Part shown: piece after piece, positions 1 to 18,655 of the stretch
Numbering within the stretch: the stretch's first letter is position 1
Layout: every line of letters begins with the position of its first letter
Virus record (IMG/VR): IMGVR_UViG_3300024243_000048
Span: 1-38,037 of that record
Direction: 5' to 3' (one strand)
DNA: 38,037 bases
DNA from: a virus
The notes under the pieces: model-generated
Seen by the model: only the letters and a program-made list of their open reading frames with translations
What the model was told of the DNA's origin: nothing
Databases searched by the model: none
Made by a program: the position numbers and the translations under genes

Positions 1-135
1 TTCAAGCAGCGTAGATTCATCAAGAGTTTCACCCTTTGCAAGAGCCTCTTTTACTTCAAAATCAACTAGAGCTGAATTGCTTTTTCCGCCCTTACCTTCT
101 TTATCAAATTCGCTATTTCTATTTCCTCGTGCCAT
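1..135 (-). CDS. Hypothetical protein, N-terminal part only
   Basis: The first 45 codons of a gene that runs off the left edge of the window. It starts with MARGNRNSEF and is rich in charged and small residues (Lys, Glu, Gly, Ser), with no recognisable domain. It begins 12 bases after the TAG stop of the structural gene at 147-827 and has a GGAG-type ribosome binding site just before its ATG, so it is probably co-transcribed with that gene. No function can be assigned. Confidence 0.6.
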   Translation of the reverse strand, partial: MARGNRNSEFDKEGKGGKSNSALVDFEVKEALAKGETLDESTLLE

Positions 136-146
136 TATCTATTCTC

Positions 147-827
147 CTATACGCCAGGTGTTGTGTAAATTGATCCAGTTGGAGGAACAATTGTTACATT
201 AAGCTCTGCTTGTCCACCTGTCTCATTTGCAATTACTGTAATCGTGCCAACTCTATTTGCAACCTGCAATGCTGTCACATCTTTAGCAATCACTCTAAAT
301 GTTTTACCAACACGGATTGTAGATTTCTGCAATGATGCATCATCCATCCAAGATGGCGATGTTCCAATTGAAGTTTGATCTGCTGCTACTTCTTGAACCT
401 CTAATGTAGCCAAATCTGAATTTGACAGGATGCAAGTGTAGCCTAGTGTGCTATTATCAAAACCAGCAATATAAGATGTTGTTGATGGAGTAACAACAGA
501 CTTTTGATTGAAGTTTAGTGATAATACAGTTGGTGTAACGGCAACAATAGGCATTTTTGAAGTACCTTTTGGAAACGTTACTAATTTTCATTTCATAGAA
601 AGTGTTTCATCAACGGGAGCCTCTAAGACGGGCATTGAAGTAATTTCAGTCCCATAAGAAGTTGAGCCAGAAGGATGATTTGTATTATACATTCGATAAT
701 CAACACCCTCATCGCTTACGGCAAACTTCGTAATCTTAAATTCCGACTCGCCCTTTGAAAGCAATTCTCTTCCCTTTTTGGTTAATACACAATCGATTGT
801 TGTTGTGCTTGAATCTAAAATACCCAT
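147..827 (-). CDS. Virion structural protein, 226 aa, one in-frame TGA (read as Trp)
   Basis: Under the standard code this looks like two ORFs (825-588 and 554-147), but they share a frame and are joined by a single TGA at 588-590 (residue 80). The joined text around it, SMKWKLVTFPKGTSKMP, reads as one smooth segment, and as I recall related phage proteins have Tyr in the equivalent KYKLVT-like segment. The N-terminus (MGILDSSTTTID, then a KKGRE helix) resembles a hypothetical structural protein widespread in T4-like phages. The C-terminal half is beta-rich, Ser/Thr/Val-rich and Ig-like in composition. The start at 827 has AAGGAG upstream and a late-type TATATTTAT element at 862-870. The stop is TAG. 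The exact virion role is unknown. Confidence 0.75.
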
Positions 828-861
828 TATAAATCTCCTTTGTGTGTTTCTACATATAATA

Positions 862-870
862 ATAAATATA
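862..870 (-). promoter_or_regulatory. Late-type promoter element TATATTTAT
   Basis: Nine-base element read on the minus strand, 35 bases upstream of the start at 827, in an AT-only stretch between two structural genes. The identical nine bases occur at 11314, 15038, 16237, 30985 and 36480, each in a gap upstream of a minus-strand unit. Likely a -10-like element of the phage late sigma factor encoded at 11392-12147 (inference). Confidence 0.5.
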
Positions 871-885
871 TATTTTTTACAAAAA

Positions 886-3800
886 TTATTTGACTCTAAT
901 GATTGCACCCGAACTTTGGCTAACTTGTACCACAGCTCCATCATAATTGGTGGCATCTGTGTTCTGAGTGCCTTTATATGTTGCATTTGACAATAATTCA
1001 AATACAGTTAAATATTGAGAGCTAGATACGGTGCTATCTGCCGATGAATAGAAACTATTTGATCCTAGTTGCGATCCAGTTACCTCATAAATTACCGAGG
1101 CAGACATCATAGATCTGTCAGATCCCGTAATTGGGAATGTTGTTGTAATATCAATGCTCTGTGATGTATTGTTTGCAATTGATTCAGATAATATTGTGAC
1201 AGTCGTGACATCAAATGAACTTGAATTATGATTTGTTGCAACAGAACTCTTTTCCCATCTATATTTTGTTCTTTCTAGAATAGGCTGCTCTATTAAAATT
1301 CCACTTCACAATTTTGCTCTCATTGGAACTACCGTCTCTACAATTTTCATAATGCTTTGATCAAAATTTCTAATAAATCTCATATAAGCATAGAAATCAT
1401 AATTATTAGGTAGCTTCTTAAAATAAAACTCACGTCACGATTCTAGATCTAGATATTTTTCATTATACATATCAGATGGATCTCCAATGGCATCGTTAAA
1501 GTCATACATGGCAAAATCGCTTATGATATCTTCATTGATTGCCTTGACTGGTGAGAAAATAATATCAATCACATTTGTATTTTCAGTCTGAGATTCAGAT
1601 GTGTGCCCAATATTGATTTGATTTGACGAATATTTGCTAGTCATAAAATAGTTCAAATTAGTTTTTGTAGATTTTGTGAAATTGCTATATTGATTTCCAG
1701 TAAATCCATTTAGTGTCACATCAATAACTGGTGGATATGAATAGTCATTGGCTGTCGATCCGGTCACATTATCATTTAGTTTGTAGTGTGCTACAAGATT
1801 GTCATCAATGTCAAAAGGATTTATCATTGCTACAGATCTAAAATCATAAGCATGCTGAGTTAATGCAGGTTCGCTTAATGATGAGCTCCACAATCTTACC
1901 TCTTGCATTGCACCAGAGTATGCTCCAACAGATCCGGTAGCACCAAAGAATAAAACATTACCAGCATAAACACCGGCATCCAAATAAGATTGAGATACGG
2001 CACTAAGTGTTGCCGAGCCAGAAAGATCGTAGAACATTTGATCCTCTTTAAAGTATTTTGTCTTAAGAGTTAATTCAGAGCCAGATCTTCTAAGAATAAT
2101 ATTGAACCAATCACCATTGAAGTATGGCACAGCATCTGATCCACTAGCATTTCAAATTGTAGGCGATCCAGAGATGTTACAAACTATAGATCCATAGTCA
2201 TCAGCATCTCCATTGTCTTCAAGTGTTACATTAAATCCAGTATTTCCAAATAGCGGTAGGTCGCCAGAGGATGTTGTTGCATATCTCATTTCAATTGTAA
2301 AGTCAGATCCAGATAGCTGGCTATAGTTTGCATTTTGAACCTCAATGCTTTCACCACCCCAGAAATTTAATGCATAAGTGTTGACATCTTCATCAACATA
2401 ATCTGATCCAGAAGTTTTGCTTCCTCCAAATTCTCTAATTGTGAGTATTGATCTAGGAATTCCATAGATGTTTAAAATGGCATCAATTGATCTTCTTGTT
2501 CCACGAATTTTATTCAAGTATGGCATTGAAGAGAATAAGCGAATCCATTTTTCTCGTGTGACATCTCGTAAAGCTGCCGATCCAGATGCTTGATTAGAAC
2601 CATGAAGATATGATGAAGCTCTTACATCGTCATATCCAGAGAATAATTCTATATTAAATACTGAAGAGTATAGATGTAGAATTTCATCTGGAACTGAATT
2701 AATCTTGTCATAGTCAAATGTGAACAAGTATTGGAACTGCTCTATGTATGATTTAATATAATCAAAGAAATCCCCTCATGATCCTAATAGAGATCTTAAG
2801 TATCTCTCCGAATCTTCTAGAGCAATAACTTCTGGAATATTTTTAATCAACGAATACTTGTTGTTTTTATCAAATACAGATCCAGATAGCTCTTGTATTC
2901 CGTACCATGTTTGAACCTGTGATGATGAGTATGAATAGTTTATAGATGAAGTACCGGATGAAAATTTTGGTCAAGCATAGCTACCTGATTTTTCATACAT
3001 ATATCTTTCATACTGAGTAAAATCATTCTTGATTTCAGTGATTTTATCCGAATAGCTTTGACTTGTCACAAGTGCATCAGAAGATGTAGGAAATGTCTGG
3101 ATGATTTCATTGTATGCCTCAATATCTCTAATCTTTGTGTAGGCATTGACGAACTTATCTTGTGCCAGACCAAAGTATGTATGATTTTGGAAAGCCTCAT
3201 AGTCGATGTTTAGGTTTTTAACACCAGATACTTTTGATGATGATATGTTTTGTTCAAACGAACCACTGTCATTGAGCACTAGCTCTTCATAGTTGAACCA
3301 ATTTGTATTTCCTGTACTATCATTTCTAGTAGATCTGTCGGTTAATTCAATTGTTGCTCCCTGTCCATGTTCTTCAAAATAGACATATACATTTTGATAT
3401 GATACTGAAACATATTGCTCTGTATAGATGTGAGAATTATTGATTGGAACTTCGGTCGGTCCTTTATAAGGATTTTCTAATTTAACAATCATCGTAGCAT
3501 ATTGCATGATGTTATTAAGATCTACCTGATACTGTGCCAAGCTTGTTTGTAGATTTTCTATAGATGATACAAATTCTAAAACAATATCAGCAGGCATGTT
3601 GGCCGCTCCACTTACTTGGGCCTGCTTAGAGCTAATTAATTCTTCAGTATTAGAAATATTTTCCTCAATAGGTCCTTGCATTTCAATAACTTTAGAATAG
3701 TCAGGTGTTACATTGATGATTCTAAAGTGTTCGCCATTAGCAGTGACAAACTTGTCAAATGATGCTAAAAAACTATCTGGAAAATTAAGCCAATAGTCTC

Positions 3801-4149
3801 ACTGAGTATCTTCCTCGACCGATAGACCGACACGCATTTCCGTCTTTGATGGTGAGACGTCTTTAATGAAAATATTACTATTGATCTCTTTTTCAAATGA
3901 AATTTTAATATCATAGTTATCAGTAGGCAGCTCAACGCTTAGATATCTAGACATGTGCAGATTTAGATTAATATCTAGTCCAGTACCCCCAGTAGAATAG
4001 ATATATTCATCAGGCTGCAAGATTCTCGAAGATACAAACGTTCCATCTAGCTTAAATACTGTAATATATACTTCTGCAGTTCCTCCTGTTGAAGCATCTT
4101 CTACGTCAGGAACAACTCCATATGTATTTTCAGTGTTTGGATTTATCAT
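886..4149 (-). CDS. Giant tail/baseplate protein with LamG-like domain, 1087 aa, six in-frame TGAs
   Basis: One continuous frame of 1088 codons from ATG 4149 to TAA 886, interrupted only by TGAs at 3799, 2971, 2776, 2152, 1435 and 1306 (residues 117, 393, 458, 666, 905, 948). Read as Trp they give natural contexts: EEDTQWDYWLNFPDSF, GSYAWPKF, LLGSWGDFFDYIK, PTIWNASG, LESWREFYF and RAKLWSGILIE. TGG is used as well. Residues about 600-770 look like a concanavalin/LamG fold (NGDWFNIILRR, MQEVRLWSSSLS, LVAHYKLND). The C-terminal part (MRAKLWSG, LERTKYRWEKSS) resembles the end of large T4-like phage tail proteins. The stop of the next gene upstream overlaps closely (TAA, two bases, ATG). Under the standard code no intact protein could be made. 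Probably a baseplate or tail-fibre connector; the exact role is inferred. Confidence 0.82.
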
Positions 4150-4151
4150 AA

Positions 4152-5471
4152 TTAAAAGGGTCCTTCTATGCTAACAAGACTTGGCTTCTTCGTGCCAGCA
4201 ATGATTAGTTGATCTGCAGCTATGTTAATTTTCATGTCACCAGTTAGAACAACTAGATTAGATCTTTCACTATAATCTCTAATTGATCCATTTTGTATTT
4301 TATCAAAGCGAACATCTAGTACGCTTGCAATGCTTAATGAATTATTCTCACTTAGGTCGTCAACAAATCTATCTTCAGCAGCCTCTATTGATGGAACACC
4401 AATATAGCTTCTAAATGCTATAATGTAATATGAATCTAATCCGTTTTTAATTGATCGGCTTTGTGCAGAATTTAGTTCAATGACTTGATGTTGAGGCTCT
4501 ATAGATCTTTCATCTGTCGTATATGAGTTTCTCAACCGACCAATATCGGAAGTATTATCGCTCACGTTAATTCCACCAAAAATAAGCTGAGGATAGACTC
4601 AATATAGATCTCCTAAGATAGGACCTTCTTCGCTATATCCTGTTGGTCCCAGTGGAGCATCAAAGTCTCACACGCTTAAGAAATCTCATCTAATTCCATA
4701 GAATAGATCTATGCTCTTTGAATAAGCTTGAGTATTGACAGTGTCTTCTACGCGAATAACAATGCCACCTATGTCAAATCCAAATGTAACATGATTTCAC
4801 TCATTTAGCTGTACAAGTTGATTAGCATCAGAAGTAACAGACATAATTTCAGTTTTCTGATCGTCTCTATCCCATATCCATGCATTAAATCTATATCTCA
4901 TATTTGATAACAATTCAAGATCTCATCCCATATACCCTGGAGTATGTAAAACTTTATGCCTAACAATGCTCAATGTGCTATTTGGTCTCAGCGTTGGCAT
5001 TCAGTGGAGTGTAAAAATATTCTGATCTAAATTATATGAGCCAACGGTTTTGTATATGTTTGGGAATCTGATCTTGTGGGGAGAAGAAGTTCCAGCAAAC
5101 GGTTGCTTACCTGTGATCATACATATCTGATCTGTATCGATGAATAATCCCTTATTCTTAACAAGTCTTTCATTTTCTACAATTGTGTCAATTTCTAATC
5201 TCACTCGTGTAGAAAAGTCTACTAATTCTTCATTTGACATTTCGCCAAAATCTGCCTCAAACTCGGCATATAGATCTGCTATAATTTCATCATGAGCTCT
5301 ACCACCTGTACCACTGTTTGGTAATATGGGATCTTTTGATACTAGTTCACTAATATCAAGTTTGGCTTTTTTGATAATTGATTTTTTGAGCGCTTCACTA
5401 TCTAAGGCCTGAGTCTGAGCTCTAACTGTCTGAGTATTTACAGTCGATCTATTAATAAGGATTTTATTCAT
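4152..5471 (-). CDS. Tail/baseplate protein with LamG-like domain, 439 aa, six in-frame TGAs
   Basis: A single 440-codon frame from ATG 5471 to TAA 4152, with TGAs at 5001, 4923, 4797, 4686, 4668 and 4599 (residues 157, 183, 225, 262, 268, 291). The most telling is residue 225, LNEWNHVTFGFD: this is the W-x-H-V motif of LamG/concanavalin-like domains (commonly GEWHHVA), where Trp is the family residue. IRWDFLSVW and GDLYWVYPQ also read well. The N-terminal ~150 residues are helical and charged, the middle is the LamG-like beta domain, and the C-terminus is beta-rich. It is two bases from its downstream neighbour and two bases after its upstream one, so translation is coupled. Function is probably receptor-distal baseplate or fibre structure; no T4 gene equivalence is claimed. 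Confidence 0.82.
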
Positions 5472-5473
5472 AA

Positions 5474-6484
5474 TTACTCCGTGGTTCTAAATGAGTGAAC
5501 ATGGTAGAATTTTTTAACATTTGATGCAAGCGAATGTTGTAATTTTAAACTATATGCTCGATTAGGCTGTAATACATCCATGTCAATATTAAAATAATTT
5601 TTTGAACTATCATAGCTGCAACTTGTGTATGCACTAAATGGAATTACAGTCTCTTTTGTAGCAGTGTCTATAATTGTATAAGCCAGATTTGTCAAAGGAA
5701 TTGATGATAGCGATCCTACACTTGTATCAAATGTCAGTGTTGGATCTTGTAATCTTGTATGAAGCTCGCAATATACTTGCTCTTGTATTGAATATACTTC
5801 TTGTTTATTTTTTAATGTAACTACATACTCAACAGATGCCGATGAATCTGCTACCGAGCCAGTCGTTGCTACATCATTCCATTTGGCATAAATTACTGGG
5901 TCGTATATTGTGAACGAATCCTTTGAATAGAAATATTTTGGATCTTGATTCTGAACCGTAGATTCGTCTCGTAGCCTGATCAAAAATCCATAATTGTCAT
6001 ATTCAGAATTGATTGATTGGCTAATAATTGTTGTAACATCTAGGCTTAAGTCTCCTGATGAGGTTGGAAAATATTGTGAAGCCGTGGGCGATGCCAAATA
6101 ATCTGATCCTGTTGTCACTCATGCTGCTGTTGATGATGAAATCCATGATACAGAACCTGATGCATTATTATCTGATACAGAACCAGTTCCCTCTTGTCAA
6201 GAGGATGACAGTATGTACGCATCAATATAGAATGCATCTTGTAACATTGTCGAACCTTGATTTGAATGTACTAATAGTTCGAAATTGCTTCCTGAGTTAA
6301 TTGATCCGGCAGCAAAAGATGCTGAAATCACACTAATGTCAAATGAAATTAAAGAACGCTTAGGATATACAGCACTACTGCTAATAATCCTGCCTACCTC
6401 AAGTAGCTCATCCTTCCCGAAATTATTTTCGCCCAACTTTTTGTCAATAAAAGAGTCTTTATTGGCTGTGAATTTTTTATACAT
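5474..6484 (-). CDS. Tail protein with DNRLRE-like domain, 336 aa, two in-frame TGAs
   Basis: A continuous frame from ATG 6484 (GGGAGAAAATTA before it) to TAA 5474, crossing TGAs at 6197 (residue 96) and 6119 (residue 122). The N-terminal ~150 residues match the feel of DNRLRE/CBM96-type beta-sandwiches, seen in fibre and surface proteins: KRSLISFDIS strand, then SSSWQEGTGS and GSVSWISS. In that family the motif W-x-E-G-T-G is conserved, and the Trp here is the TGA codon, while the second motif Trp is TGG. The remainder is beta-rich and Ser/Thr-rich. It sits between the gp6-like wedge protein and the LamG protein in the structural operon. Role: probably a fibre or baseplate accessory protein. 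Confidence 0.78.
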
Positions 6485-6498
6485 TAATTTTCTCCCGT

Positions 6499-8400
6499 TT
6501 AGCTTGCACTACCGATGATATCTTGATTTGGGTATTTTAATTCAAAAATACTTACATCTCTAATCGGATATATAATGCCTTTTTGTGTCATTGCTGGAAA
6601 ATCTACTGATTTTGATGAATGTGTTCCTCCGCTAACATTAATAATATCAACATTTGGCACCGATTGAACACCGGCTACATCATTCAACACTTGATATACT
6701 TTAGAGTATACGATTGGCTGATTGAAGCTTCAATTGTCAATGTTAAAAAATGTCTTTAGTGCGTCTACACAATTGATCAAAATGGCTCGCTTATTCTCAT
6801 GAGGATCAACGATGATCTCAAATAAGACTTTAAAGTTTACAATAGTCCCATCAACAATATTAACAGTATCTGTAAGAAGCCTGTATTGTGATAGATATGT
6901 CTTCAAGTTCTTTTTGAGAGCATATGAACATGCTTGAAGATTCTTATTCGAATCATAACTCAATGAAAATAAATTGATTGCCAGTGGATTTGCATGGCTT
7001 GGAACAATTCCTAGTGCAGGATTAATATCATCCGATCCCACAGATCTTGTTAGGTCATCCTTTTCCACATATACTTTTGCAATCGATCCAAACTTGGCCG
7101 GTAGTAAATATGATCTTACAATATAATCCTCTTTGATTACACATCTCTTCTGAGCATTGAGGTTTGCCTTGGCATTAAATGCAATACTATTGATGTCTTC
7201 CTCGGTTCTGCCACCTGTTGATTTTCCTGGGTTTGATGCTCTAATCGAATTTTTTACATCTGAGAGAGCAAGACTGTCCAGTGTTGATTCGGTTACTGAA
7301 AATGTTCATGTAGCATTTCCAACTTCTGTAATAGCTTTTGCCGGGACATTCGTAGCTAGACCTCCGCCGTCTCTATAGCTTATTGTTAAAACTGTATTTG
7401 CTGGAGCTTCACCGAATGTAGTCGTCTTTAAGAAATTTTCAGGATCGATTGCATAGTCATATTTATTATCAACGTTTGCAAATGGAGTACCAACATTATT
7501 TGGATTTGGGATAATCTCTTCATCATTAGACGTAAGAACTCCAGATCCAAATAGAACATATGTGAGGTTATTTTCATCAACCTCTGTTTCAAATCTCTTA
7601 GGAACTTTTTTCAATTTCAATAAATATGGAACTGAACCGCTATACGCACTCAATTCTGGATCATTGGCTGATGTATTTTGTTGCTCAACGAATACTGTAT
7701 CCTGTGCCAATGAGTCGACCTGATACCATTTATTACCTTCTGAATCTGTAATTGAGATAACTTCAGAAACTGTTTTTGAAGGTAGCTGTATTTTTAAATA
7801 TTTTTGTGGTGATGTGACAGTCTGGGTCATAGTTTTTGTTTCGCCAGACAATACACGAACTGTTTTTCTAATTAAAAAATGAGTAGGAATGTCAGAGCCA
7901 TCAACGGCAAATATAACTACCTCTACATTGTTGCTATCAAGCTCAGTATCAATTATTGCAAAATTAATATCCTCTTGAGTTTCAAATATGTGGGCCGGAC
8001 TCTTTGTTGAAATTTGCAGACCTGCACTAATTACTGGACAGTATCTGAGATCAGGAGTCTTTGCTCCAGTCGATCCAGTTGCAGGAACAACGATAAACAC
8101 ATCTTCATCTGTAATAGAACTTATGGCAGCTGTACTTTTATATCCAAATAGCTTAGCTCGTGCCAATACATTCTTCCGTTGCTTAGGATCAAATAGCTCA
8201 TTAAACATGCTATCTTGATAGAACGATAGAACATCTCCAACGTATGCAGGTATTTCCATAAGCATTTCACCTGGAGATGAATCTGTGAAGTCTTTGTATG
8301 TGTTCCCAAAGTACGACTTAATGAATGTATAAATGTTTTCCCGTAAACCAGAGAAATCTCTTCCAATATAATTTACATTTTTCTTTACTGGCGTTGCCAT
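6499..8400 (-). CDS. Baseplate wedge protein, gp6/baseplate J-like, 633 aa, two in-frame TGAs
   Basis: Continuous from ATG 8400 to TAG 6499 across TGAs at 7306 (residue 365, VGNATWTFSV) and 6730 (residue 557, NIDNWSFNQPI). N-terminal features NYIGRDFSGLRENIYTFIKS and SSPGEMLMEIPAYVGD are typical of T4 gp6-type wedge proteins. The middle holds the baseplate J core (NPGKSTGGRTEEDINS, QKRCVIKEDYIVRS, PAKFGSIAKVYVEKDD). The C-terminal FNQPIVYSKVYQVLNDVAGV is the usual J-protein end. T4 gp6 is of similar length. It assembles with gp25 and gp53 in the wedge; the gp25-like gene lies directly upstream. Confident family call; the late-only TGA codons are the odd feature. Confidence 0.88.
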
Positions 8401-8410
8401 TAATATTCTC

Positions 8411-8845
8411 CTATGATGTTAATACCACAATCTCTTCTGCGGTAACATCTATATTATCTTTAAGGTGAAATTTTATCTGAACACCTAGTATTTGAAGCTC
8501 TTTTTCGCTTGCAGATTGATCAAGAGCTATAGAATCTAGAGTTACCTCTGGTATTCATATCTCAACAGCTGTTGCAATATTGTCTTTAATTCTTTGTTCG
8601 TCTTCATCATCAACTTGTTCAAATATAAACTCTTTTAATCGTACGCCAAATGTAGGCTTCATTGGTCTCTCACCCACATTTGTTCTTAATAGTATTCGAA
8701 TGTTTGCTCTAATTCTATCAAGCGAAGTTGTAGTAGCTCCAAACGGTGCACCAGTCAATCCAAATGGATAGTCAAGCCCAATGTTTTCTTCAGTAATTAA
8801 TACTGTTTCAGAATCTGATCCTGTATAGTTATATAAAACTGGCAT
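8411..8845 (-). CDS. Baseplate wedge subunit, gp25-like (GPW_gp25 family), 144 aa, one in-frame TGA
   Basis: Frame from ATG 8845 to TAG 8411 with one TGA at 8555 (residue 97). The segment DYPFGLTGAPFG, RANIRILLRTNVGERPMKP and FGVRLKEFIFEQ is the gp25/lysozyme-like wedge family. The family next has a helix ending in a conserved Trp-Pro type motif (Ai..W.PRv); here it is AVEIWIPEV, with Trp being the TGA codon. T4 gp25 is 132 aa, close to this length only if the TGA is read; stopping at TGA would give a 96-aa truncated protein. It follows its upstream neighbour with TAA directly abutting the ATG. In T4 gp25 joins gp6 and gp53 in the wedge core. Confidence 0.9.
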
Positions 8846-9091
8846 TTAGCTTATCATTCCTGTCCCTGTTACGGTTGTTGCAACTGGAGCCACAGTTACT
8901 TGTGCTGCCGGAGATCCTGCTGTAGGTATTCCGGGAGGTGCAATTCCAGCTCCATTCACTGTCACCAGAGCAGATTTTATATATGCATCAATGATATCTG
9001 CGAGTTCTGATGCAGCATCTTCTGGTGACTTGTTATTACTCTTAAAATACGCAGTCAGTTGCTGAACTAACTGAGGTTTTATTAGTGGCAT
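8846..9091 (-). CDS. Small structural-operon protein, 81 aa
   Basis: Starts at ATG 9091 one base after the TAG of the gene upstream and ends with TAA directly before the gp25-like start. The N-terminal half is helical (KPQLVQQLTAYFKSNNKS, then ELADIIDAYIKSALV). The C-terminal half is low-complexity, rich in Gly, Pro, Ala, Thr and Val (PPGIPTAGSPAAQ). No known domain. Its location between spike and wedge genes suggests a baseplate accessory or chaperone-like role, by context only. Confidence 0.7.
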   Translation of the reverse strand: MPLIKPQLVQQLTAYFKSNNKSPEDAASELADIIDAYIKSALVTVNGAGIAPPGIPTAGSPAAQVTVAPVATTVTGTGMIS

Positions 9092-9092
9092 C

Positions 9093-9581
9093 CTATATGA
9101 TACCCTTTTGCATCATAGCTGTTGCTCTAGATGCCTTCTCAGTTTTTGCTGTTCCTGCCATTATTCGAGAATAGTCTGACCCATATAGCTTGTTGTGCAA
9201 TTCTACAACTGCTGGATTATTTACATCAATCTTCTGACTTAAATCATCAACTGCAGTTTCCTGCCCGAAGTCTGTCATATCCATGGGAATATTTACACCG
9301 CCAACATTCAGCGAGACTGGTGCATTAGTTGTTTCAGGTTCTTCTTGAACGAACTGATTTGCAATCTCATTGATACTAGCAGCCGGCATGGTTTTTACCG
9401 GGCGAATTGATTCTGCGACAGGTTGTGCATTAATAAGCGATAAAGCATACTTTACCTCTTTACGTACCTGACGACGAATCATTTCCTGCACAGCTTGTGA
9501 TTTGAGCAATTTAGTCATGTCTTTCTTCCATACTGGTCGAAGCATTCCTAACATTTTCTGTGCTAATTGTTTAATATCCAT
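9093..9581 (-). CDS. Hypothetical structural-operon protein, 162 aa
   Basis: Begins at ATG 9581 with an AGGAGTG ribosome binding site. The N-terminal ~65 residues are a basic amphipathic helix (KQLAQKMLGMLRPVWKKD, then RRQVRKEVKYALSLI). The middle is acidic, Pro- and Thr-rich and probably flexible, and the C-terminal end is helical. It contains one Trp, encoded TGG, and no TGA. It lies between the spike gene and the small gene at 8846. No recognisable family; possibly a virion linker or assembly factor. Confidence 0.68.
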   Translation of the reverse strand: MDIKQLAQKMLGMLRPVWKKDMTKLLKSQAVQEMIRRQVRKEVKYALSLINAQPVAESIRPVKTMPAASINEIANQFVQEEPETTNAPVSLNVGGVNIPMDMTDFGQETAVDDLSQKIDVNNPAVVELHNKLYGSDYSRIMAGTAKTEKASRATAMMQKGII

Positions 9582-9594
9582 TTTGTCACTCCTG

Positions 9595-10635
9595 TTAGTT
9601 TGTTTTATTTACAGCACTTAGTGTGCCTGCAATCTTTGCTTTTATCTTTGTAAATATGGCTGCATTAATTGGAGGAGTAGAAGGTCCTGTTGCAGTTCCA
9701 ACTGTCATCTTTAAGATGGCATCTACTAGCTCATTCATTAAAGCATCATACTTATTACCGAGAACAAGTGCCTCACTTGCCCCAGTACCTAAATAAATCT
9801 CTGGACTATTTATCGTTGTTTTTGTTTGTGTGTCGATATTAATATCTTGAGCCGCCGCAATTCCTATAGTAGCAGCTGATGATAAGAATATTGATCCTGC
9901 ATCAGATGAAATTCGTATCTTATCTGATTTTAAATTTATTGCACTCCCTAGATCTTCACTTGGTTTATTTGAAGAGAATCCATCTGGAAATGTCTGAGAT
10001 GAGTCAACATCTGCTTCACCAAATACTGATATTCCATGGGTATTTATATCATATTCTGCTCCTTGTCTATTTATATAGATCGAAGTGACAGAATTTCCGA
10101 TTTCATCATATGAGAATATTAGAGTGTTATTGTGAAACCCTTTTATGATATTGTCTCCCTCTTTTTCAATAATCGGTATGATCTCTGAATCTGGTCCTAC
10201 AAATGTTGTCTCTGAAGGTTCTTCAATCGGGCCTCCTGCTGCCATAGTATCTTCATAGCTATCAGCCGAATCATCAACAACTGTTTGTGTTTCAACTGGT
10301 GATAGAAAGTCAGAAATTATATCAAGATTGTCCGTGTCTGAATAGTTAATAATTCCAGTATAGAAGAACTTGCTCTGGACAGCTTCTATTTGTATATATG
10401 ATCCAACAACTGGCTTGCTAAATGAATTGGGATCTTTTGGTGTTGCCACCTCAGACTCTGTGGATTGATTGTCTAAACCAGGGATATTAAACTCAATCTG
10501 TCCTACAACGTTCGATTCAGGTATTGAAACAACCTTTGCAACGAACATGACATTTTTTTCGCTATTTATACTCCGATCTATACTCCCAAATAAATCTGAA
10601 AACGAACCTTGAAACGTAGAATTATTTGATCTCAT
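9595..10635 (-). CDS. Baseplate spike/hub protein with N-terminal OB fold (gp5/gpV-like), 346 aa
   Basis: The start at ATG 10635 (MRSNNSTFQGSFSDLFGS) is chosen because it overlaps the stop of the upstream gene; the frame is open for 16 more codons upstream without a good start. Residues about 25-110 resemble the OB fold of tail spike proteins (VMFVAKVVSIPESNVVGQI, FNIPGLDNQ, PVVGSYIQIEA). The middle is acidic. From about residue 240 the sequence turns into repetitive beta-strands (INLKSDKIRISSDAGSIFLS, INIDTQTKTTINSPEIYLGT), the pattern of a trimeric beta-helix needle. It has no lysozyme insertion, unlike T4 gp5. It should form the membrane-piercing tip at the centre of the baseplate. No TGA codon occurs, and the sequence has no Trp. 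Confidence 0.78.
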   Translation of the reverse strand: MRSNNSTFQGSFSDLFGSIDRSINSEKNVMFVAKVVSIPESNVVGQIEFNIPGLDNQSTESEVATPKDPNSFSKPVVGSYIQIEAVQSKFFYTGIINYSDTDNLDIISDFLSPVETQTVVDDSADSYEDTMAAGGPIEEPSETTFVGPDSEIIPIIEKEGDNIIKGFHNNTLIFSYDEIGNSVTSIYINRQGAEYDINTHGISVFGEADVDSSQTFPDGFSSNKPSEDLGSAINLKSDKIRISSDAGSIFLSSAATIGIAAAQDINIDTQTKTTINSPEIYLGTGASEALVLGNKYDALMNELVDAILKMTVGTATGPSTPPINAAIFTKIKAKIAGTLSAVNKTN

Positions 10636-10831
10636 TACCGCTTTCTTCTTCGTCTTCATCACCCTCAAGATCAGGAAGATCAATTTCTAAATTCTTACAT
10701 AGAACTTTAATTTCATTTCTCGTTCTATAGATTTGAAACAATAGGTCGTTGAGGTCCTTTGACTTCAGCTTGTATTCTTCAACGCAATCGTTGAGCCTAT
10801 TAATTTGGTTGTTCTTGTCCTGTAGATCCAT
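10622..10831 (-). CDS. Small coiled-coil protein, 69 aa
   Basis: ATG 10831 lies 32 bases inside the end of the upstream gene and the TAA overlaps the start of the spike gene by 14 bases. The N-terminal ~50 residues form a charged coiled coil (LQDKNNQINRLNDCVEEYKL) and the C-terminus is a strongly acidic tail (EGDEDEEESGNE). No known family. The overlap on both sides suggests tight translational coupling in the structural operon. The long overlap makes the exact start uncertain, although no other in-frame ATG exists. Confidence 0.62.
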   Translation of the reverse strand: MDLQDKNNQINRLNDCVEEYKLKSKDLNDLLFQIYRTRNEIKVLCKNLEIDLPDLEGDEDEEESGNEIK

Positions 10832-11282
10832 TTGATTTTCCCACTTTACTATCTATTGTATTTTTTATTACATCAGCTTCTCTAGCAATTTGTTTGGCCG
10901 TCTCTTTGGCTTCTTTAATGATCTCTTCCTTCCGCACTTCCCACGGTTTTGTTGAATCAATTTCAGCTTGAGCAGCTTGCTTTGTTGTTAAGAATTTCTG
11001 ACTTACTGTTGCCAGATCAATATAGTGCTTCTTATTCTTGACAGACATGTCAATGAAATCCTTGATCAATGGTGCTGCAAATCCCATAATTGTTTCATAG
11101 TCTATCTGATTTTCACTTTCTCCATCATCACCCACTGGATTGTTAGCAAACACTTCCATAAGATTCGTGATAGTCGTCTTTATGAGCTCATCTTCTTTTT
11201 TTGTTTCATCGAAAATATGGCTTAACAAATCAGATACTGTTTTGCCTTCGAATAGCTCTTCTTTTAGAATGTCATCGGTCAT
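10800..11282 (-). CDS. Hypothetical protein, first gene of the structural operon, 160 aa
   Basis: ATG 11282 follows a GGAGTAATAAA ribosome binding site and lies 32 bases downstream of a late-type TATATTTAT element. The protein is mostly helical and acidic in the N-terminal half, with a basic helical C-terminal part (WEVRKEEIIKEAKETAKQ) and a Gly/Ser/Gln tail. Its only Trp is TGG. It resembles no family I can name; by position it could be a virion assembly or baseplate protein. Confidence 0.68.
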   Translation of the reverse strand: MTDDILKEELFEGKTVSDLLSHIFDETKKEDELIKTTITNLMEVFANNPVGDDGESENQIDYETIMGFAAPLIKDFIDMSVKNKKHYIDLATVSQKFLTTKQAAQAEIDSTKPWEVRKEEIIKEAKETAKQIAREADVIKNTIDSKVGKSNGSTGQEQPN

Positions 11283-11313
11283 TTTATTACTCCGTTTTGT
11301 GCACGTTATAGTA

Positions 11314-11322
11314 ATAAATATA
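11314..11322 (-). promoter_or_regulatory. Late-type promoter element TATATTTAT for the structural operon
   Basis: Identical to the element at 862. It lies between the terminator of the sigma gene and the first gene of the structural operon, so it is the natural promoter of the whole tail/baseplate transcript that carries most in-frame TGAs. Promoter function is inferred from repetition and position. Confidence 0.55.
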
Positions 11323-11341
11323 AAATTTTACAATTTTTCGC

Positions 11342-11367
11342 AAAAAAGCCCACCGATTAAAGTGGGC
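11342..11367 (-). terminator. Rho-independent terminator
   Basis: Minus-strand hairpin GCCCAC, 8-base loop, GTGGGC followed by six Ts. It lies 24 bases after the stop of the sigma factor gene and ends the transcript that comes from the right. It separates the early/middle-to-sigma region from the late structural operon. Confidence 0.85.
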
Positions 11368-11391
11368 ATGGATAGAGCATTGTCTGCTGGT

Positions 11392-12147
11392 TTAAATTGT
11401 AACTGATCCTGATATGATTTCACCTTTGTTGACGTAGTTCTGTCGGAGATGAACATATGCTGTTCGCATTTTCTTGATTGTCGGTGTAATATTCTTTGTC
11501 TCATGTCCTGTCATTTCACGGACATAGATATACAATTCTTTCTTGTTGGTGTTTTCAATATTCTGAGCATTAGCAAGCAGCTGTAATATTGAATGCATAA
11601 TATCAATTTCCTTCTGTATTTTAATACCAATCTTTAGATGGTTGTCTTCAAACCATTTAGACATTTTACCAATGAAAATCTTATCGTCATTCTCATATGT
11701 GTCTAGATGCATAAGATCTGGATGATCAATATAATTAATGAAAGTATCATCATCATTTAGATCCAACCTGCGTCTGTATCTCTGTTGGGCCTGTTTAGAT
11801 AGTCTAATTAAATGTCGTTTGATAATTGTACCAAAGAACGAATATGCTCTTGGTTTTTGTCCTGTCGATGTAAGTCTTTCTGGGTCGAATTTGTCGAATT
11901 TTTCTAGAATGTATGTGAGACAAATGGCTTTCAACTCTTGAGTCTCATATCCCATTTTAAAGAATCCATGATAGTTCCCATATGTGTTAATAATATTTTC
12001 ACTTAATAGACTCAATGGTCGATATAGATTTTGTTCAAAAAAGTAATTTTTTTCTCCGACTGATCTCCACTCTGTTGCTAAATATTCTTTAACAAACTGT
12101 TCTTCCTTAGAACCAAAATAATTATTTGATGTGCTCTTCTTTGGCAT
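11392..12147 (-). CDS. Late RNA polymerase sigma factor, T4 gp55-like, 251 aa
   Basis: The core NYHGFFKMGYETQELKAICL, ILEKFDKFDPERLTSTG, RAYSFFGTIIKRHLIRLSKQ resembles the sigma region 2 of T4 gp55 and its relatives, including the F-D-x-E-R and aromatic-rich helix before a basic patch. Length is somewhat longer than T4 gp55 (185 aa). In T4, gp55 directs the host polymerase to late promoters with a simple -10 element and works with the sliding clamp. It overlaps its upstream neighbour by 26 bases and is followed by a clear terminator. The six TATATTTAT elements in the window are likely targets (inference). The stop is TAA. Confidence 0.75.
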   Translation of the reverse strand: MPKKSTSNNYFGSKEEQFVKEYLATEWRSVGEKNYFFEQNLYRPLSLLSENIINTYGNYHGFFKMGYETQELKAICLTYILEKFDKFDPERLTSTGQKPRAYSFFGTIIKRHLIRLSKQAQQRYRRRLDLNDDDTFINYIDHPDLMHLDTYENDDKIFIGKMSKWFEDNHLKIGIKIQKEIDIMHSILQLLANAQNIENTNKKELYIYVREMTGHETKNITPTIKKMRTAYVHLRQNYVNKGEIISGSVTI

Positions 12148-12481
12148 CTGTTGATACTCCCATTCGTAATTTATTGTAAACCTTTTCGACCTCTGCTAAA
12201 CTTGAGTCAATCATATTGAAAAACTCTGCCACCTTGGCATTTTTCTCATAATAAAAATTCATTTCAGGATTTGATGTTAGACTCTTTTTTACCTCCTGCA
12301 GTGTATTCCATATGTCTTCCAATACGTCATTTTTTCCATTGATCTCAGTAATCAGTGTGTCGATTTCCGCTTCGTGATCTTTAATCATATTTAGATAGAG
12401 AGAATTTAAGAACCAAAGCCTCCCTATTGTTGCTACCAATATAACCAAAAAACCTATTGAAAAAACAGTTATTAATTCCAT
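12122..12481 (-). CDS. Membrane-anchored coiled-coil protein, 119 aa
   Basis: The N-terminal residues 3-30 form a hydrophobic membrane helix (ITVFSIGFLVILVATIGRLW), followed by a long charged coiled coil. It resembles spanin-like or inner-membrane phage proteins in layout, but no lysis genes are next to it. It overlaps the sigma factor start by 26 bases and follows the HD hydrolase with one base between. No firm function. Confidence 0.65.
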   Translation of the reverse strand: MELITVFSIGFLVILVATIGRLWFLNSLYLNMIKDHEAEIDTLITEINGKNDVLEDIWNTLQEVKKSLTSNPEMNFYYEKNAKVAEFFNMIDSSLAEVEKVYNKLRMGVSTDAKEEHIK

Positions 12482-12482
12482 C

Positions 12483-13145
12483 TTACTTTCCTTTTTCAGC
12501 TTGCATATCTAAATGCTCGCGCTTTTGTGCTGCCATCATGTCAGAAGTTCGTAGTATTTCTGTTAAGAGACAGATTTCGTTTGAATATCCATAACGTTTC
12601 AGTTGATTTCCACCATAGTTGCATCCATCATGGATTCGTATGGCTTGATATTCTTCAATGTCCATTGTGATGCCAAATTTCTGTAAAAGAAATAAGCTTT
12701 TGTCACAGTGTTCCAACCCAGCATCAGTTTCGTCATTCAGTTTAAAGTTAAATCCAAGATTTTTCCTATGCCAGTCGGAATCCTGAGGAACATAATTGGG
12801 ATCTTTACCATCAGTGACCTTGCCTATGTCATGGAACACAGAAACAAAAACGCACTGTTCCACGGTGGGGACGTCCAATCCTTCTTGCTCATACACGCTT
12901 CTAATTAACAGCACATATGGGATTACATCTAATATGTGTTCAACCAGTCCTCCAATGTATGCTCCATGTCCCCCGGGAGAGGCAGGCGAGCTTGCAAAAT
13001 CGGCTTCAATAGTCTCGAGCATGGGTCCAATCTGTTCCCAACGGTCAGCATATTTGAGATGCTTCTGTATAATTTTTTCAAGCTCTTCATAATTTTTGAT
13101 TTGATCTTTCTCTGGGATTTTGTAAACGTTTCTAACAATTTTCAT
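12483..13145 (-). CDS. HD-domain phosphohydrolase, 220 aa
   Basis: The metal ligands of the HD superfamily are all visible: H70 (GGLVEHILD), H105-D106 (FHDIGKV), H172 (IRIHDG) and D202 (LRTSDMM). These bind one or two metal ions and hydrolyse phosphate esters, often nucleotides or cyclic dinucleotides. Similar HD proteins occur in T4-like phages, where the substrate is usually unknown. Ribosome binding site AGAGG precedes ATG 13145. Located in the operon that ends with the late sigma factor. Substrate not predictable from sequence alone. Confidence 0.82.
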   Translation of the reverse strand: MKIVRNVYKIPEKDQIKNYEELEKIIQKHLKYADRWEQIGPMLETIEADFASSPASPGGHGAYIGGLVEHILDVIPYVLLIRSVYEQEGLDVPTVEQCVFVSVFHDIGKVTDGKDPNYVPQDSDWHRKNLGFNFKLNDETDAGLEHCDKSLFLLQKFGITMDIEEYQAIRIHDGCNYGGNQLKRYGYSNEICLLTEILRTSDMMAAQKREHLDMQAEKGK

Positions 13146-13146
13146 A

Positions 13147-13485
13147 TTAGCCTCTTTTTTTAAGGATTGCTTTTAACTCTTCATTATCTGAGGCAAACTC
13201 AATAAAGTCGTCCAGATAACCTAGTATTTTTGTTGTTAATTCTTGTAATTCATTTTGCTGTAATGATGAAGCAAATTTAACATCTTCTCTCAGTTTAGAA
13301 ACCAAGGCAGGACTATCACCATAATTCTCAGCAAGGAACGATAATGATATCGCTAGATACTGAATGTCAGTTAGAACTGTATTGAGATTTCCTGTGAGTT
13401 CATTACAAGTTTCAGATACTGCTACTATTCGTTTGAGCACATCTACTAATGAAGGTAGATTATTTGATGCTTGATTTGATGTCAT
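13147..13485 (-). CDS. Hypothetical helical protein, 112 aa
   Basis: All-helical, acidic, no Cys and no Trp. ATG 13485 lies 26 bases inside the end of the gene upstream and its stop is one base from the HD gene, so the three are translationally coupled. Contains long heptad-like stretches (VDVLKRIVAVSETCNELTGN). No family recognised. Confidence 0.66.
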   Translation of the reverse strand: MTSNQASNNLPSLVDVLKRIVAVSETCNELTGNLNTVLTDIQYLAISLSFLAENYGDSPALVSKLREDVKFASSLQQNELQELTTKILGYLDDFIEFASDNEELKAILKKRG

Positions 13486-13960
13486 CAGAGCTGAGCACCT
13501 TTTCCGTTATTGTTATTGGACCAACCTCACCCACATGCTCTTTAAAGGGAGCGTCTTCAGAACTAGCATCAATATGAATAGCTCCTTCAGATCCAGTCTC
13601 ATTTCCTGTCAGTGGTGGGTGAACAATTACAAGTGGCTCGTCTTCAATCTTGACTTCATCTACTATAAACTCATGTTTTTTGGAAACCGATTTTGGTTTC
13701 CGAACGGCCGATGCAACCGATTTTGGTTTCCGAGGCTTGTAATAAATATCGCATCTATTAACTGTAGCATCAAATAGATCTCCCACAAATACTGCTGTAG
13801 GCTCCATACTAATTGCGACGCCATTCTTATCGGCCAAATATGTTTCAGTCTCAAACTTGTTGTATGGCAATTCTCTTAGATGAATAATCGTATATGTACC
13901 TTTGGCACTCTTAACAAGTATTGCTTTCCCAGGCCATGTGTGTGATAGATTGGTTCTCAT
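13460..13960 (-). CDS. Hypothetical protein with a basic KPKSV repeat, 166 aa
   Basis: The start ATG 13960 (MRTNLSHTWPGKAIL) lies four bases after the TAG of the upstream gene; the frame is open further upstream but those codons lie inside that gene. The N-terminal ~85 residues form a compact beta-rich domain. They are followed by a basic linker with two copies of a KPKSV motif (residues about 90-110), with unusually repeated DNA (CCGATTTTGGTTTCCGA twice at 13690-13732 on the plus strand). The C-terminal tail is acidic. No family recognised. Confidence 0.65.
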   Translation of the reverse strand: MRTNLSHTWPGKAILVKSAKGTYTIIHLRELPYNKFETETYLADKNGVAISMEPTAVFVGDLFDATVNRCDIYYKPRKPKSVASAVRKPKSVSKKHEFIVDEVKIEDEPLVIVHPPLTGNETGSEGAIHIDASSEDAPFKEHVGEVGPITITEKVLSSDDIKSSIK

Positions 13961-13964
13961 AATA

Positions 13965-14180
13965 CTATCCGTGAAGCAATTCTTTTTTAGGTCCAAGATC
14001 CTCAATGTCTGCAAACTCACGCAATGAGAAAAACAATACGAATTTCTTATCTACGTTATGCGAATTGACATAGTCATATCCTTCTGAAGCCCAGTAACCA
14101 ATTACCGACTGAACATGCTGATCAAGATCTGGCCTATTCAGGTCAGTTACTGTTACTACTTTTGTGCGCTCTTTTGTCAT
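13965..14180 (-). CDS. Hypothetical protein, 71 aa
   Basis: ATG 14180 has AAAGGATG upstream and begins 23 bases after the tmRNA 3' end. The compact alpha/beta sequence includes TKVVTVTDLNRPDLDQHVQS and SEGYDYVNSHNVDKKFVLFF, resembling small phage proteins of unknown function. Stop is TAG. Confidence 0.62.
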   Translation of the reverse strand: MTKERTKVVTVTDLNRPDLDQHVQSVIGYWASEGYDYVNSHNVDKKFVLFFSLREFADIEDLGPKKELLHG

Positions 14181-14202
14181 GATGCATCCTTTATTTAAAA
14201 AT

Positions 14203-14560
14203 TGGTGGAGCCGGGGAGAATCGAACTCCCGTCCGCAAAGCTTCCTTCAACAAGTCGTTCACAAGTTTAGTTGGTTTCTTTCAATTAATACGAATTTAGA
14301 ACTCCAACAAATCTTATCGGCATGTATACTCATGGCCGCAGTGATCCAGTTTCAATTCGGTGAAACTTGTTGCATAAATACCTATTCGAAAACGACGTTA
14401 GACCTCCATTATCGAAGTCGTGGAGCTAACGGCTGCCTAATTCCTTAGGCTGCGATTGCGTAGTTTGTGCCAGTTATCTCTGGTTGTTTAGTTTTTAAGA
14501 CTCACTCTGTCTACTTGCACTTATTGTCAAAAATCATCCCGTCGAATCCAGGTCGGCCCC
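14203..14560 (-). ncRNA. ssrA: Transfer-messenger RNA (tmRNA, SsrA)
   Basis: A one-piece tmRNA of 358 nt. The 5' end GGGGCCGACCTGGATTCGAC and 3' end with T-arm GGGAG-TTCGATT-CTCCC, ending CGGCTCCACCA (CCA encoded), form the tRNA-like domain. The acceptor stem has the conserved G3-U70 wobble needed for alanyl-tRNA synthetase. The mRNA-like part contains an open frame ending in NYAIAA then TAA at about 14444. The best resume codon is GGC preceded by UAACU, giving the tag GTNYAIAA; longer in-frame readings (EITGTNYAIAA) are possible. Its role is to free stalled ribosomes and tag proteins for proteolysis. The gene lies in the same orientation between protein genes (6 bases from the CDS upstream), so it is probably processed from a longer transcript. 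tmRNA genes are rare in phages. Confidence 0.95.
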
Positions 14561-14566
14561 AGTTTC

Positions 14567-15004
14567 TTATTTTACAGTCAACTTTTTATTACCTTTTGAA
14601 TCTTTTACTTCAAATGCCGGTGCTTTCTCATCAAATTTAAGAGGAGTTGCCTCTTCTTCTCGAACCTGATCTACATCAGCTTGAGTTATTGGAGGAGGAG
14701 TATCTTTCAATCCTGCATTTTCTTCAGCTAATTCAGCATTTTCATCATTGAGAAGATCATTAACTTTAGTCAGTCTTTTGACTTCCTTTTCCAATGCTTT
14801 GAACTCATTAAGCTTGGGTGCAATTACAACAGTTTCATTGTCGTTAACACACTCAAGGTGAGCCAGCCGTACATCATCTGCAAATCGTAATTCATTACCA
14901 GCTGAAGAATTAGTCACAAATGTCTCACTTACGATCTTACATTTGTTTTCTATTTCACCGCCACATACGTCACAGAAGAATTTATTTACAGTTAGTTGTT
15001 CCAT
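14567..15004 (-). CDS. Zinc-binding coiled-coil protein, 145 aa
   Basis: Residues 11-14 CDVC and a later H-x-x-C (LAHLEC) form a likely zinc site. They are followed by a long acidic coiled coil (EFKALEKEVKRLTKVNDLLN and the next heptads) and a basic C-terminus. ATG 15004 has AAGGAGAAA before it, and both a TATAAATA and a TATATTTAT element lie 27-42 bases further upstream. It contains no Trp and no TGA. The gene ends six bases before the tmRNA, which suggests co-transcription. Function unknown; possibly a late virion or assembly protein. Confidence 0.68.
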   Translation of the reverse strand: MEQLTVNKFFCDVCGGEIENKCKIVSETFVTNSSAGNELRFADDVRLAHLECVNDNETVVIAPKLNEFKALEKEVKRLTKVNDLLNDENAELAEENAGLKDTPPPITQADVDQVREEEATPLKFDEKAPAFEVKDSKGNKKLTVK

Positions 15005-15030
15005 ATATTTTCTCCTTGGTTAGTTGTCAT

Positions 15031-15046
15031 TATTTATATAAATATA
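15031..15046 (-). promoter_or_regulatory. Late promoter with overlapping TATATTTAT and TATAAATA
   Basis: On the minus strand TATATTTAT (15046-15038) overlaps TATAAATA (15038-15031); the latter is the exact T4 late promoter -10 consensus. It lies 27 bases from the start of the gene at 14567-15004, which carries the tmRNA downstream. Good support for a gp55-like sigma being the user (inference). Confidence 0.6.
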
Positions 15047-15075
15047 TATAAAATTTGCAATAGTTTGATTTCTTT

Positions 15076-15333
15076 TTAGGCCTTTATGTCGATCGTCTGA
15101 CCTGGGTGTGCTGGAAGTATAATCGAGGGCGTCCGTTTCTTCTTTGTAGATTTAGCTTTAATGGGACTAAACTCTGCCTCTTCAATTTCTTCCAGAAACC
15201 ATTCTTCATTTGTTTGTTTCGAAAATATCCGCTGATCATGTTGGATCCCTTTAACGATAGAATCAGTGACACGATCAGCAGGTATCTTATGTAGCACTCT
15301 ATACTTAGTGCCTTTGAATTCGATTATTTTCAA
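15076..15333 (-). CDS. Hypothetical protein, 85 aa
   Basis: ATG 15333 overlaps the stop of the upstream gene by four bases (TAAAGATTG context). The protein is basic in its C-terminal half (AKSTKKKRTPSII). One Trp, TGG. No family recognised. It is the last gene of a unit starting from the late element at 16237. Confidence 0.62.
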   Translation of the reverse strand: MKIIEFKGTKYRVLHKIPADRVTDSIVKGIQHDQRIFSKQTNEEWFLEEIEEAEFSPIKAKSTKKKRTPSIILPAHPGQTIDIKA

Positions 15334-16136
15334 TCTTTAGCCTTTCCACATTTGGGACAGAAATTATATCCCTTTTTGAATTTAGTGCCATCAACAGGAC
15401 AATACTGCACCAAGTCTCTTTGATTGGCTGGTTGAAGACTAATTGGAAGTAATTGCAAAACAACCTTTGTATCTACAATCCAGTTAAAATCAGCCTCAAC
15501 ACTTTGAAATTCTTGATTAGAATTTTCATTCGACTTATTAATCCTTCCTGTCTCAATTGGCTCTGGTGCTGCCATTGATCTCATCAGCTTATGTCTAGCG
15601 TTCTTCTTTGGACTCTGATTGAGATTGGTGCTGCAATAATTTACAGTAGTATTTTCTGATATTCCACCACTGTTGCTTATTGTCGTATTGTACTGATCAA
15701 ATGTATTGCCGTGAAATCCAAACCAATCTCCAGTATATGTAAACTGTGCTGGCCAGTTGGTTGTGTTATTCAATAGAGGAATAGGATCGTTTTCTTGATG
15801 AAATTCTACCTCTATTAATCCATTCTTACTGATTGCTGCTTTTGCAGCTGGTGAATCATCCACTTCATATGTGTTAAATTCAAATCGTTTCTTTGTTTCA
15901 ATAAACCTGTCCAGAAAAATACGTTGGCCTGGGTCTATGATCAAATGTCGATTAGACATGTATTCCCCATTGAATAGAAATTTGACTCCATAACGGCGCT
16001 GAGTTGGATTGAATAGTTCAATCTCAAACTTGGCTTTGTCAGAAAGATATACTTTTCCACGGAATCTTTGTAATCTGTTTTTGTCAATTGAAATGTGTGC
16101 TTCGGGCTGAGTGCCCACTCTTTGAGTAGTGTTCAT
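15330..16136 (-). CDS. Late protein with C-terminal zinc ribbon, 268 aa
   Basis: The start ATG 16136 (MNTTQRVGTQ) is chosen for its AAGGAGACACATC ribosome binding site; an upstream in-frame start lacks one. The body is beta-rich (KFEIELFNPTQRRYGVKFLF, RFIETKKRFEFNTYEVDDS), with a Gly/Asn/Thr-rich region (TISNSGGISENTTVN). It ends in a zinc ribbon CPVDGTKFKKGYNFCPKCG. Beta-rich surface-type sequence and the late element at 16237 suggest a virion protein. Trp codons are all TGG, so not every late-type gene uses TGA. No named family. Confidence 0.7.
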   Translation of the reverse strand: MNTTQRVGTQPEAHISIDKNRLQRFRGKVYLSDKAKFEIELFNPTQRRYGVKFLFNGEYMSNRHLIIDPGQRIFLDRFIETKKRFEFNTYEVDDSPAAKAAISKNGLIEVEFHQENDPIPLLNNTTNWPAQFTYTGDWFGFHGNTFDQYNTTISNSGGISENTTVNYCSTNLNQSPKKNARHKLMRSMAAPEPIETGRINKSNENSNQEFQSVEADFNWIVDTKVVLQLLPISLQPANQRDLVQYCPVDGTKFKKGYNFCPKCGKAKD

Positions 16137-16236
16137 GATGTGTCTCCTTATTAATATCTCCACTTAACATTTTGTTGCTATCATGTAACAACTCTAAAGG
16201 TCTTCATGCCTCACGTTAAACGGATTCGAGTTATGT

Positions 16237-16245: not shown

Positions 16246-16271
16246 TATCAAAGAGCAAAAAGTCGGTTTTA

Positions 16272-17533: not shown

Positions 17534-17538
17534 TATAT

Positions 17539-18644: not shown

Positions 18645-18655
18645 ATTGCTTCCTT

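Follow-up and report, generated by a model that had tools for sequence, protein, structure and literature searches.

Phages with late-gene recoding, in which TGA stands for tryptophan (translation table 4), were reportedly described by Borges and colleagues in 2022. They carry in-frame TGA codons in their structural genes and keep their early genes nearly free of them, and some encode a UGA suppressor tRNA, release factor 1 (RF1) and tryptophanyl-tRNA synthetase (TrpRS). In hosts with the standard code, the use of TGA for tryptophan in structural and lytic genes is thought, according to PMC10746230, to delay late proteins. Phages of code 4 hosts of the Mycoplasma and Spiroplasma type would be expected to have TGA genome-wide instead. 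Another stop codon is affected in phAss-1 and other table 15 phages (TAG read as Gln); phAss-1 has stops inside structural genes, a large tRNA set and, according to its authors, no cognate synthetase.

Here we analyse a 38,037-base IMG/VR virus record (IMGVR_UViG_3300024243_000048; this whole stretch is called the window below), in which the genes discussed lie on the minus strand and six of them, at 147-8845, are intact only when TGA is read as sense. The phage is a marine myovirus of the T4-like type and a distant relative of Flavobacterium phage immuto; judging from its sequence, it is a TGA-to-tryptophan late-gene recoded phage, a kind already known. UGA is very probably translated as tryptophan, chiefly in the late genes, a statement that leaves the decoder aside. 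Like the late-gene recoded phages, it has in-frame TGA in structural genes and almost none in early ones; none of the suppressor tRNA, RF1 and TrpRS of some of those phages was seen in the contigs searched, and its TGA codons are not spread genome-wide as would be expected in phages of code 4 hosts. With phAss-1 it shares stop codons in structural genes and a large tRNA set, and the tRNA-Trp genes of the two are 86% identical, whereas phAss-1 recodes TAG with three tRNA-Sup(CTA) genes and is, according to its authors, siphovirus-like.

Reading frames broken only by TGA

The six genes hold 18 in-frame TGA and 14 TGG codons and no internal TAA or TAG; each starts with ATG, has a length that is a multiple of three and ends at TAA or TAG. 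A first-pass annotation made from the letters alone had read through 18 TGAs to obtain six genes closing at TAA or TAG, with no frameshift or other stop required, and the codon counts agree with it on both points, every break being a TGA. As TGA makes up 40% of the stops (202/506) when this strand is read in its two other frames, 18 TGA breaks out of 18 are not a product of chance (p ~7e-8 under random nonsense). Open reading frames (ORFs) of at least 150 aa cover 47% of positions 1-8845 under table 11 and 93% once TGA is taken as sense, with no gain from taking TAG as sense. Over 8846-38037 there is no specific gain, the coverage being 50% under table 11, 54% if TGA is sense and 56% if TAG is.

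Contigs from five other IMG/VR records (L002-L006) overlap all or part of the six genes at 99.95-99.995% identity, and every TGA and TGG codon is the same in them, an argument against sequencing error. Altogether, 14 other IMG/VR records yielded contigs of this phage; all compared overlaps are 99.0-100% identical, some of the comparisons being of a contig against itself, and no TGA or TGG codon of the called ORFs varies among them.

The segments joined across TGA could have been unrelated proteins, a possibility raised with the first-pass annotation, yet they align with relatives as single proteins, and the search of the joined proteins with hidden Markov models likewise returned a match running across a TGA. 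That match is in the gp25-like baseplate wedge protein (8411-8845, 144 aa, one TGA at 8557, stop TAG), which fits PF04965 with an E-value of 3.7e-15 over residues 43-130; at the TGA site its relatives have Y 17, N 7, W 3 and F 1 times. The gp6-like baseplate wedge protein (6499-8400, 633 aa, PHROG 219, TGAs at 7308 and 6732, stop TAA) has at TGA codon 557 a residue that is a TGG-coded W in 23 of 23 distant relatives and W in 29 of 29 relatives in a second alignment. In the 336-aa protein at 5474-6484 (TGAs at 6199 and 6121, stop TAA), which spans Mel-JY01 L048:25361-26521 in alignment (E 6e-24), W96 is matched by W in 20 of 20 relatives and W122, also a TGA, is not conserved.

The 1087-aa baseplate or tail-region protein at 886-4149 has six TGAs (first bases 3801, 2973, 2778, 2154, 1437 and 1308) and stops at TAA; five of these lie within the alignment of its residues 282-1003 to the Mel-JY01 protein L048:27763-31773 (E 6e-41), and W is the commonest residue of the relatives at one of the six sites, codon 393 (8/12). 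The late structural gene at 147-827 (226 aa, one TGA at 590-588, stop TAG) was assigned by its ORF and by homologues that span the TGA, where they have Y in seven of eight cases and S in the eighth; the listed ORF start at 1001 is too early, and translation probably begins at the ATG at 827, which follows a stretch resembling a ribosome-binding site. For the 439-aa protein at 4152-5471 (TGAs at 5003, 4925, 4799, 4688, 4670 and 4601, two TGG, stop TAA) no homologue was found among the relatives examined, and BLASTP against its positional neighbour in Mel-JY01 gave no similarity, so that the evidence for its six TGAs is the open frame. A single-sequence AlphaFold model of this protein was uninformative (mean predicted local distance difference test score, pLDDT, of 30) and was not used.

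Tryptophan in relatives at TGA sites, and the concentration of TGA in late genes

Which amino acid is inserted was judged by aligning the phage proteins, with TGA masked as X, to ORFs of standard-code relatives (138 loci given). Five second gene copies were dropped and 57 of the 62 genes with hits kept, covering 30 TGA and 180 TGG sites; the relatives counted include near duplicates of each other, and for the major capsid protein (MCP) they are the best 80 of 583. Tryptophan accounts for 362 of 821 aligned residues at TGA sites (44.1%) and for 1191 of 2505 at TGG sites (47.5%), against 0.36% elsewhere; retaining the five second copies changes the two shares to 44.8% and 47.1%. Among columns at least 90% conserved, Trp is the residue in 7 of 8 at TGA sites and 43 of 57 at TGG sites. 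By BLOSUM62 scores averaged over TGA sites, W fits best (2.92), followed by Y (0.65), and the order is the same at TGG sites. At single codons the agreement can be complete, as at TGA codon 298 of the head-tail adaptor (W in 63/63 relatives) and TGA codons 117 and 297 of TerL (38/38 and 43/43), or partial, as at codon 155 of the prohead protease (56/65) and codon 563 of the sheath (15/22).

Beyond anything in the first-pass annotation, the recoding falls mostly in late genes and does not extend over the whole genome. The contigs cover ~144 kb of the phage (summed lengths, the pieces not joined), and genes were assigned as late or early by function and place. In the late structural genes UGA and UGG stand side by side for tryptophan; the replication and nucleotide genes use almost exclusively UGG. 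Among genes with homologues, 27 late ones have 45 TGA to 90 TGG and 30 early ones 3 to 125 (Fisher p 5e-12), a count that takes in all such genes with two start corrections and one Trp codon before ATG 827 removed, and that leaves out the 439-aa gene (6/2). A hand-picked table of 20 late and 31 early genes gives 51/81 against 1/165, two TGAs upstream of better starts being counted as zero; it omitted eight TGA-free late-block genes with homologues (L042 98-1228 and seven of L198).

Late genes with TGA include TerL (4 TGA/10 TGG), prohead protease (3/1), head-tail adaptor (4/2), sheath (1/5), hub (1/1), the baseplate genes of the window and, with 10/11, a fibre ORF that exceeds 2500 aa and is cut off by the end of its contig; 11 of the 27 late genes have none. 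No TGA occurs in the genes for replication, nucleotides and repair, namely SSB (0/8), UvsX (0/3), DNA polymerase (0/9), ribonucleotide reductase (0/12), primase (0/4), SbcCD (0/6), RNA ligase (0/11) and Pnkp (0/5); of these, primase and SbcCD are placed between late genes. One of the three early TGAs is in a glycosyltransferase, at a site where three of three relatives have Trp. Within the late class, capsid (0/11), tube (0/6) and sheath (1/5) together have 1 TGA to 22 TGG, and the remaining late genes 44 to 68 (p 6e-4, in a test chosen after the counts were seen), and their usage of CAA, AAA and GAA is ordinary.

Several observations pull the other way. Trp tops the residue counts at no more than 12 of the 30 TGA sites, and at 78 of the 180 TGG sites. 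The relatives have Asn in 57 of 61 cases at TGA codon 85 of the adaptor, Arg or Lys in 38 of 44 at TGA codon 449 of TerL, and W in none of 23 distant relatives at TGA codon 365 of the gp6-like protein. The other two early TGAs stand, beside 2 TGG, in a 136-aa ORF that has a homologue and lies between the PolA-like gene and SSB (L038 15809-16219). The TGG sites scatter alike, the spread at TGA sites being no different from that of ordinary Trp codons.

A further TGA-bearing gene, outside the range of the first-pass annotation, encodes a nuclease-like protein of 225 aa at 35784-36461 (TGAs at 36056, 36044 and 35945, no TGG, stop TAA); compared with its two hits, TGA codon 136 is W in both, 173 in one and 140 in neither. 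Its TAA stop lies within the tRNA-Trp gene at 35726-35798. ORFs without homologues are outside the late and early counts. Those bearing TGA in the late block are L038 250-552 and 565-1440, L042 2282-3076, 3092-3640 and 5885-6646, L191 2583-2906 and 4539-4892, and L194 2-484 and 495-1031; those in the early block are L040 3110-3625 and 13763-14314, L041 6354-6755 and window 35784-36461. Some of these small early-block ORFs may be late genes. L038 12611-14365, also without a homologue, has no TGA and 12 TGG.

As a stop, TGA is scarce. In the early part of the window 3 of 42 ORFs (at least 80 aa) end at it, one of them being the first part of the nuclease-like gene. The other two, an early-region gene at 15324-16163 (TGA 15332-15330) and the RlaP-like RNA repair gene at 17865-18644 (TGA 17876-17874), have TAA as the second and the third codon after the TGA, respectively, and a tryptophan reading would add two to three residues, Trp included. 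The share of ORFs that end in TGA is 6-9% in immuto and 14-31% in Mel-JY01, and for the coding strand of G012 it is 7%; where TGA is rare as a stop its reassignment would be easier.

The nearest named phages by the gp6-like protein are Microcystis phage Mel-JY01 (PP395634; 40%) and Flavobacterium phage immuto (NC_055915; 38%). Both have a similar order of structural genes and differ in that their aligned genes are unrecoded; immuto has four annotated tRNAs and Mel-JY01 one, none for Trp, whereas this phage has a tRNA-Trp(CCA). The 132 loci of relatives, with 226,414 aligned residues, contain 4 TGA and 2365 TGG, no locus having more than one TGA, and scans of viral contigs with gp6 and sheath returned only the same phage or relatives at no more than 52% identity. 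As far as these scans show, the recoding is thus a property of one branch.

The decoder and competing explanations

What could be reading UGA in this phage? The first-pass annotation had held that TGA is recoded as an amino acid and had named TGA-to-tryptophan phages as precedent. The recoding stands, with homologues pointing to tryptophan; the part of the precedent that is not matched is a tRNA(UCA), which was not seen in the contigs searched. The 27 tRNAs, serving all 20 amino acids, form one fully read cluster of ~10 kb (L041 of the longer contig) and are accompanied by a tmRNA. The only tRNA-Trp seen in the phage contigs, at 35726-35798, has the anticodon CCA. ARAGORN found no UCA anticodon in the window, G003 1-80000, G002 39501-58283 and G001 28001-46387; Rfam RF00005 found no tRNA in G009, G011 and G015; in G002, G003 and G010 it located that same tRNA cluster. 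RF-1 (PF00472) and tRNA-synt_1b (PF00579) were found in none of the three records G001-G003, the head-gene contigs not having been searched for these. The lack of a tRNA(UCA) is not unheard of, since of 73 phages for which one survey predicted table 4, 11 carried a Sup-TCA tRNA; its authors name Mycoplasma and Spiroplasma phages as one reason (PMC11210395).

The mechanism we propose is that the host would have the standard code and UGA would at first be a stop. During infection the phage would shift the balance between tryptophanyl-tRNA and release factor 2 (RF2), until UGA is read well enough for the tail, baseplate, packaging and fibre proteins to be made. Our leading guess for the decoder, offered tentatively, is that the phage tRNA-Trp(CCA) may read UGA as a near-cognate codon. 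That UGA is almost absent from the genes for the major capsid protein, the tube and the sheath fits an inefficient decoder.

The tRNA-Trp(CCA) has a 5-bp anticodon stem, C9 over U12-A23, and a D-stem of GGTT/AACC. In E. coli tRNA-Trp, A9C and G24A promote UGA reading, according to PMC5311926 and PMC13092985. The phage tRNA shares the CCA anticodon and C9 with the A9C mutant. The anticodon stem, five pairs by eye (ACGCT/AGCGT), differs from the 4-bp stem of the Blastocrithidia-like tRNA-Trp(CCA). Other features weigh against this tRNA as the decoder: it has C24 where the Hirsh G24A read-through mutant has A24, and its C9, a mutation in the E. coli A9C tRNA, belongs to a D-arm that is natural in other genomes and phages. 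Among bacterial genome contigs, 33 stretches have the identical C9/GGTT D-arm. In phAss-1, a TAG recoder, C9 is likewise combined with the GGTT stem, and the D-arm is also present in the large phage contigs G005, G006 and G007, which show no specific gain when TGA is read as sense. As a mark of UGA reading, C9 was consequently rejected: given its presence in unrecoded phages, bacterial contigs and phAss-1, it is consistent with UGA reading but does not argue for it. A test on the base that follows the codon is weak: it is T in 8 of 64 cases for TGA and 23 of 87 for TGG (p 0.04), and comparison with the composition of codon position 1 gives p 0.20.

An account that overlaps with near-cognate reading, and that we regard as possible if rather doubtful, is that host RF2 is removed or blocked, leaving UGA to an ordinary host or phage tRNA-Trp(CCA). 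The plain anticodon of the single tRNA-Trp would suit it, as would the missing UCA tRNA in the scanned contigs and the missing RF-1 and tRNA-synt_1b domains in G001-G003, and the rarity of TGA stops in some relatives, immuto and G012, would make the loss of RF2 more tolerable; Mel-JY01 is the counterexample with its larger share of TGA-ended ORFs, and no candidate RF2 inhibitor was identified, none having been sought by name.

Somewhat unlikely in our estimate is a tRNA-Trp(UCA), with or without RF1 and TrpRS, encoded in the unread part of the genome, a mechanism that PMC10746230 describes for some code 4 phages. Joining contigs by 38-40-base overlaps gained the head genes and left a gap, an unread stretch flanked by the giant fibre ORF (end of L042) and the genes preceding TerL (start of L194), and the relatives measure 160-190 kb against the ~144 kb covered here. 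Against this reading, all 27 tRNAs sit in one read cluster of ~10 kb and the 19 tRNAs of the relative G012 also form a single cluster, and the avoidance of TGA in MCP and tube is less expected with an efficient cognate tRNA.

The remaining explanations fall well behind. That the host itself reads TGA as Trp and the phage merely shares its code would be in keeping with the 22 of 27 INPHARED phages predicted to use table 4 that are Mycoplasma or Spiroplasma phages (PMC11210395). It is very improbable here, given that TGA would then be expected throughout while the early genes have 3 TGA to 125 TGG, that the named relatives infect Flavobacterium and Microcystis, and that the aligned genes of relatives have 4 TGA to 2365 TGG. 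Still more improbable is programmed partial read-through in which TGA-ended fragments and joined proteins are both made and needed. Reading of UGA is possibly incomplete and several late genes have just one TGA, but up to 6-10 TGAs per gene, several in conserved Trp columns or domains, are unlike a regulated site. Decay or sequencing error, suggested by nothing more than the fragmentation of ORFs under table 11 and already discounted in the first-pass annotation, has practically no chance of being right, as all breaks in the six genes are TGA, frameshifts are unneeded, independent contigs agree and several TGA sites are conserved Trp columns.

The phage shows TGA recoding cleanly in a marine T4-like virus, and with no recoding in the relatives examined, gene-by-gene comparison is feasible; it also raises the question of whether a phage can recode UGA with a plain CCA tRNA-Trp. 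Standard gene calling splits the packaging, tail and fibre genes of such phages. If the proposed mechanism were true, the stop codon might conceivably act as a dose-dependent switch of late genes, although we would not count on it.

Other features of the window and contigs

Seventeen tRNAs of the cluster lie in the window at 30822-37390 (minus strand), and the tmRNA, with the tag GTNYAIAA, lies at 14203-14560 (minus strand; RF00023, 120.8 bits). Close together on the same strand are a T4-type RNA ligase (16433-17533), the RlaP-like gene (17874-18644 up to its TGA) and a Pnkp-like kinase-phosphatase (18937-19923), a tRNA/RNA repair set beside a complete tRNA set. Bacterial tRNA-Tyr usually has a long variable arm. 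The window has at 36723-36794 a short tRNA of 72 bases with the anticodon GTA, and a longer tRNA-Tyr is found at L041 7104-7187.

Signs of TAG recoding were met in other contigs: the ORF coverage of G007 1-20000 (L220) rises from 37% to 56% with TAG as sense, and L152 477-551 is a tRNA with a CTA anticodon. It is possible that these represent TAG recoding in other phages.

In the head-gene region, L191 8047-9904 and 13114-13431 encode several small proteins with a common start like MERLPDTRTLINE. The stretch at 35504-35574 of the window recurs with 80-84% identity in other places of the phage contigs and is perhaps a shared leader or promoter; one such copy precedes the gene at 20487-20843, whose ORF also begins MYI..TTKGV.

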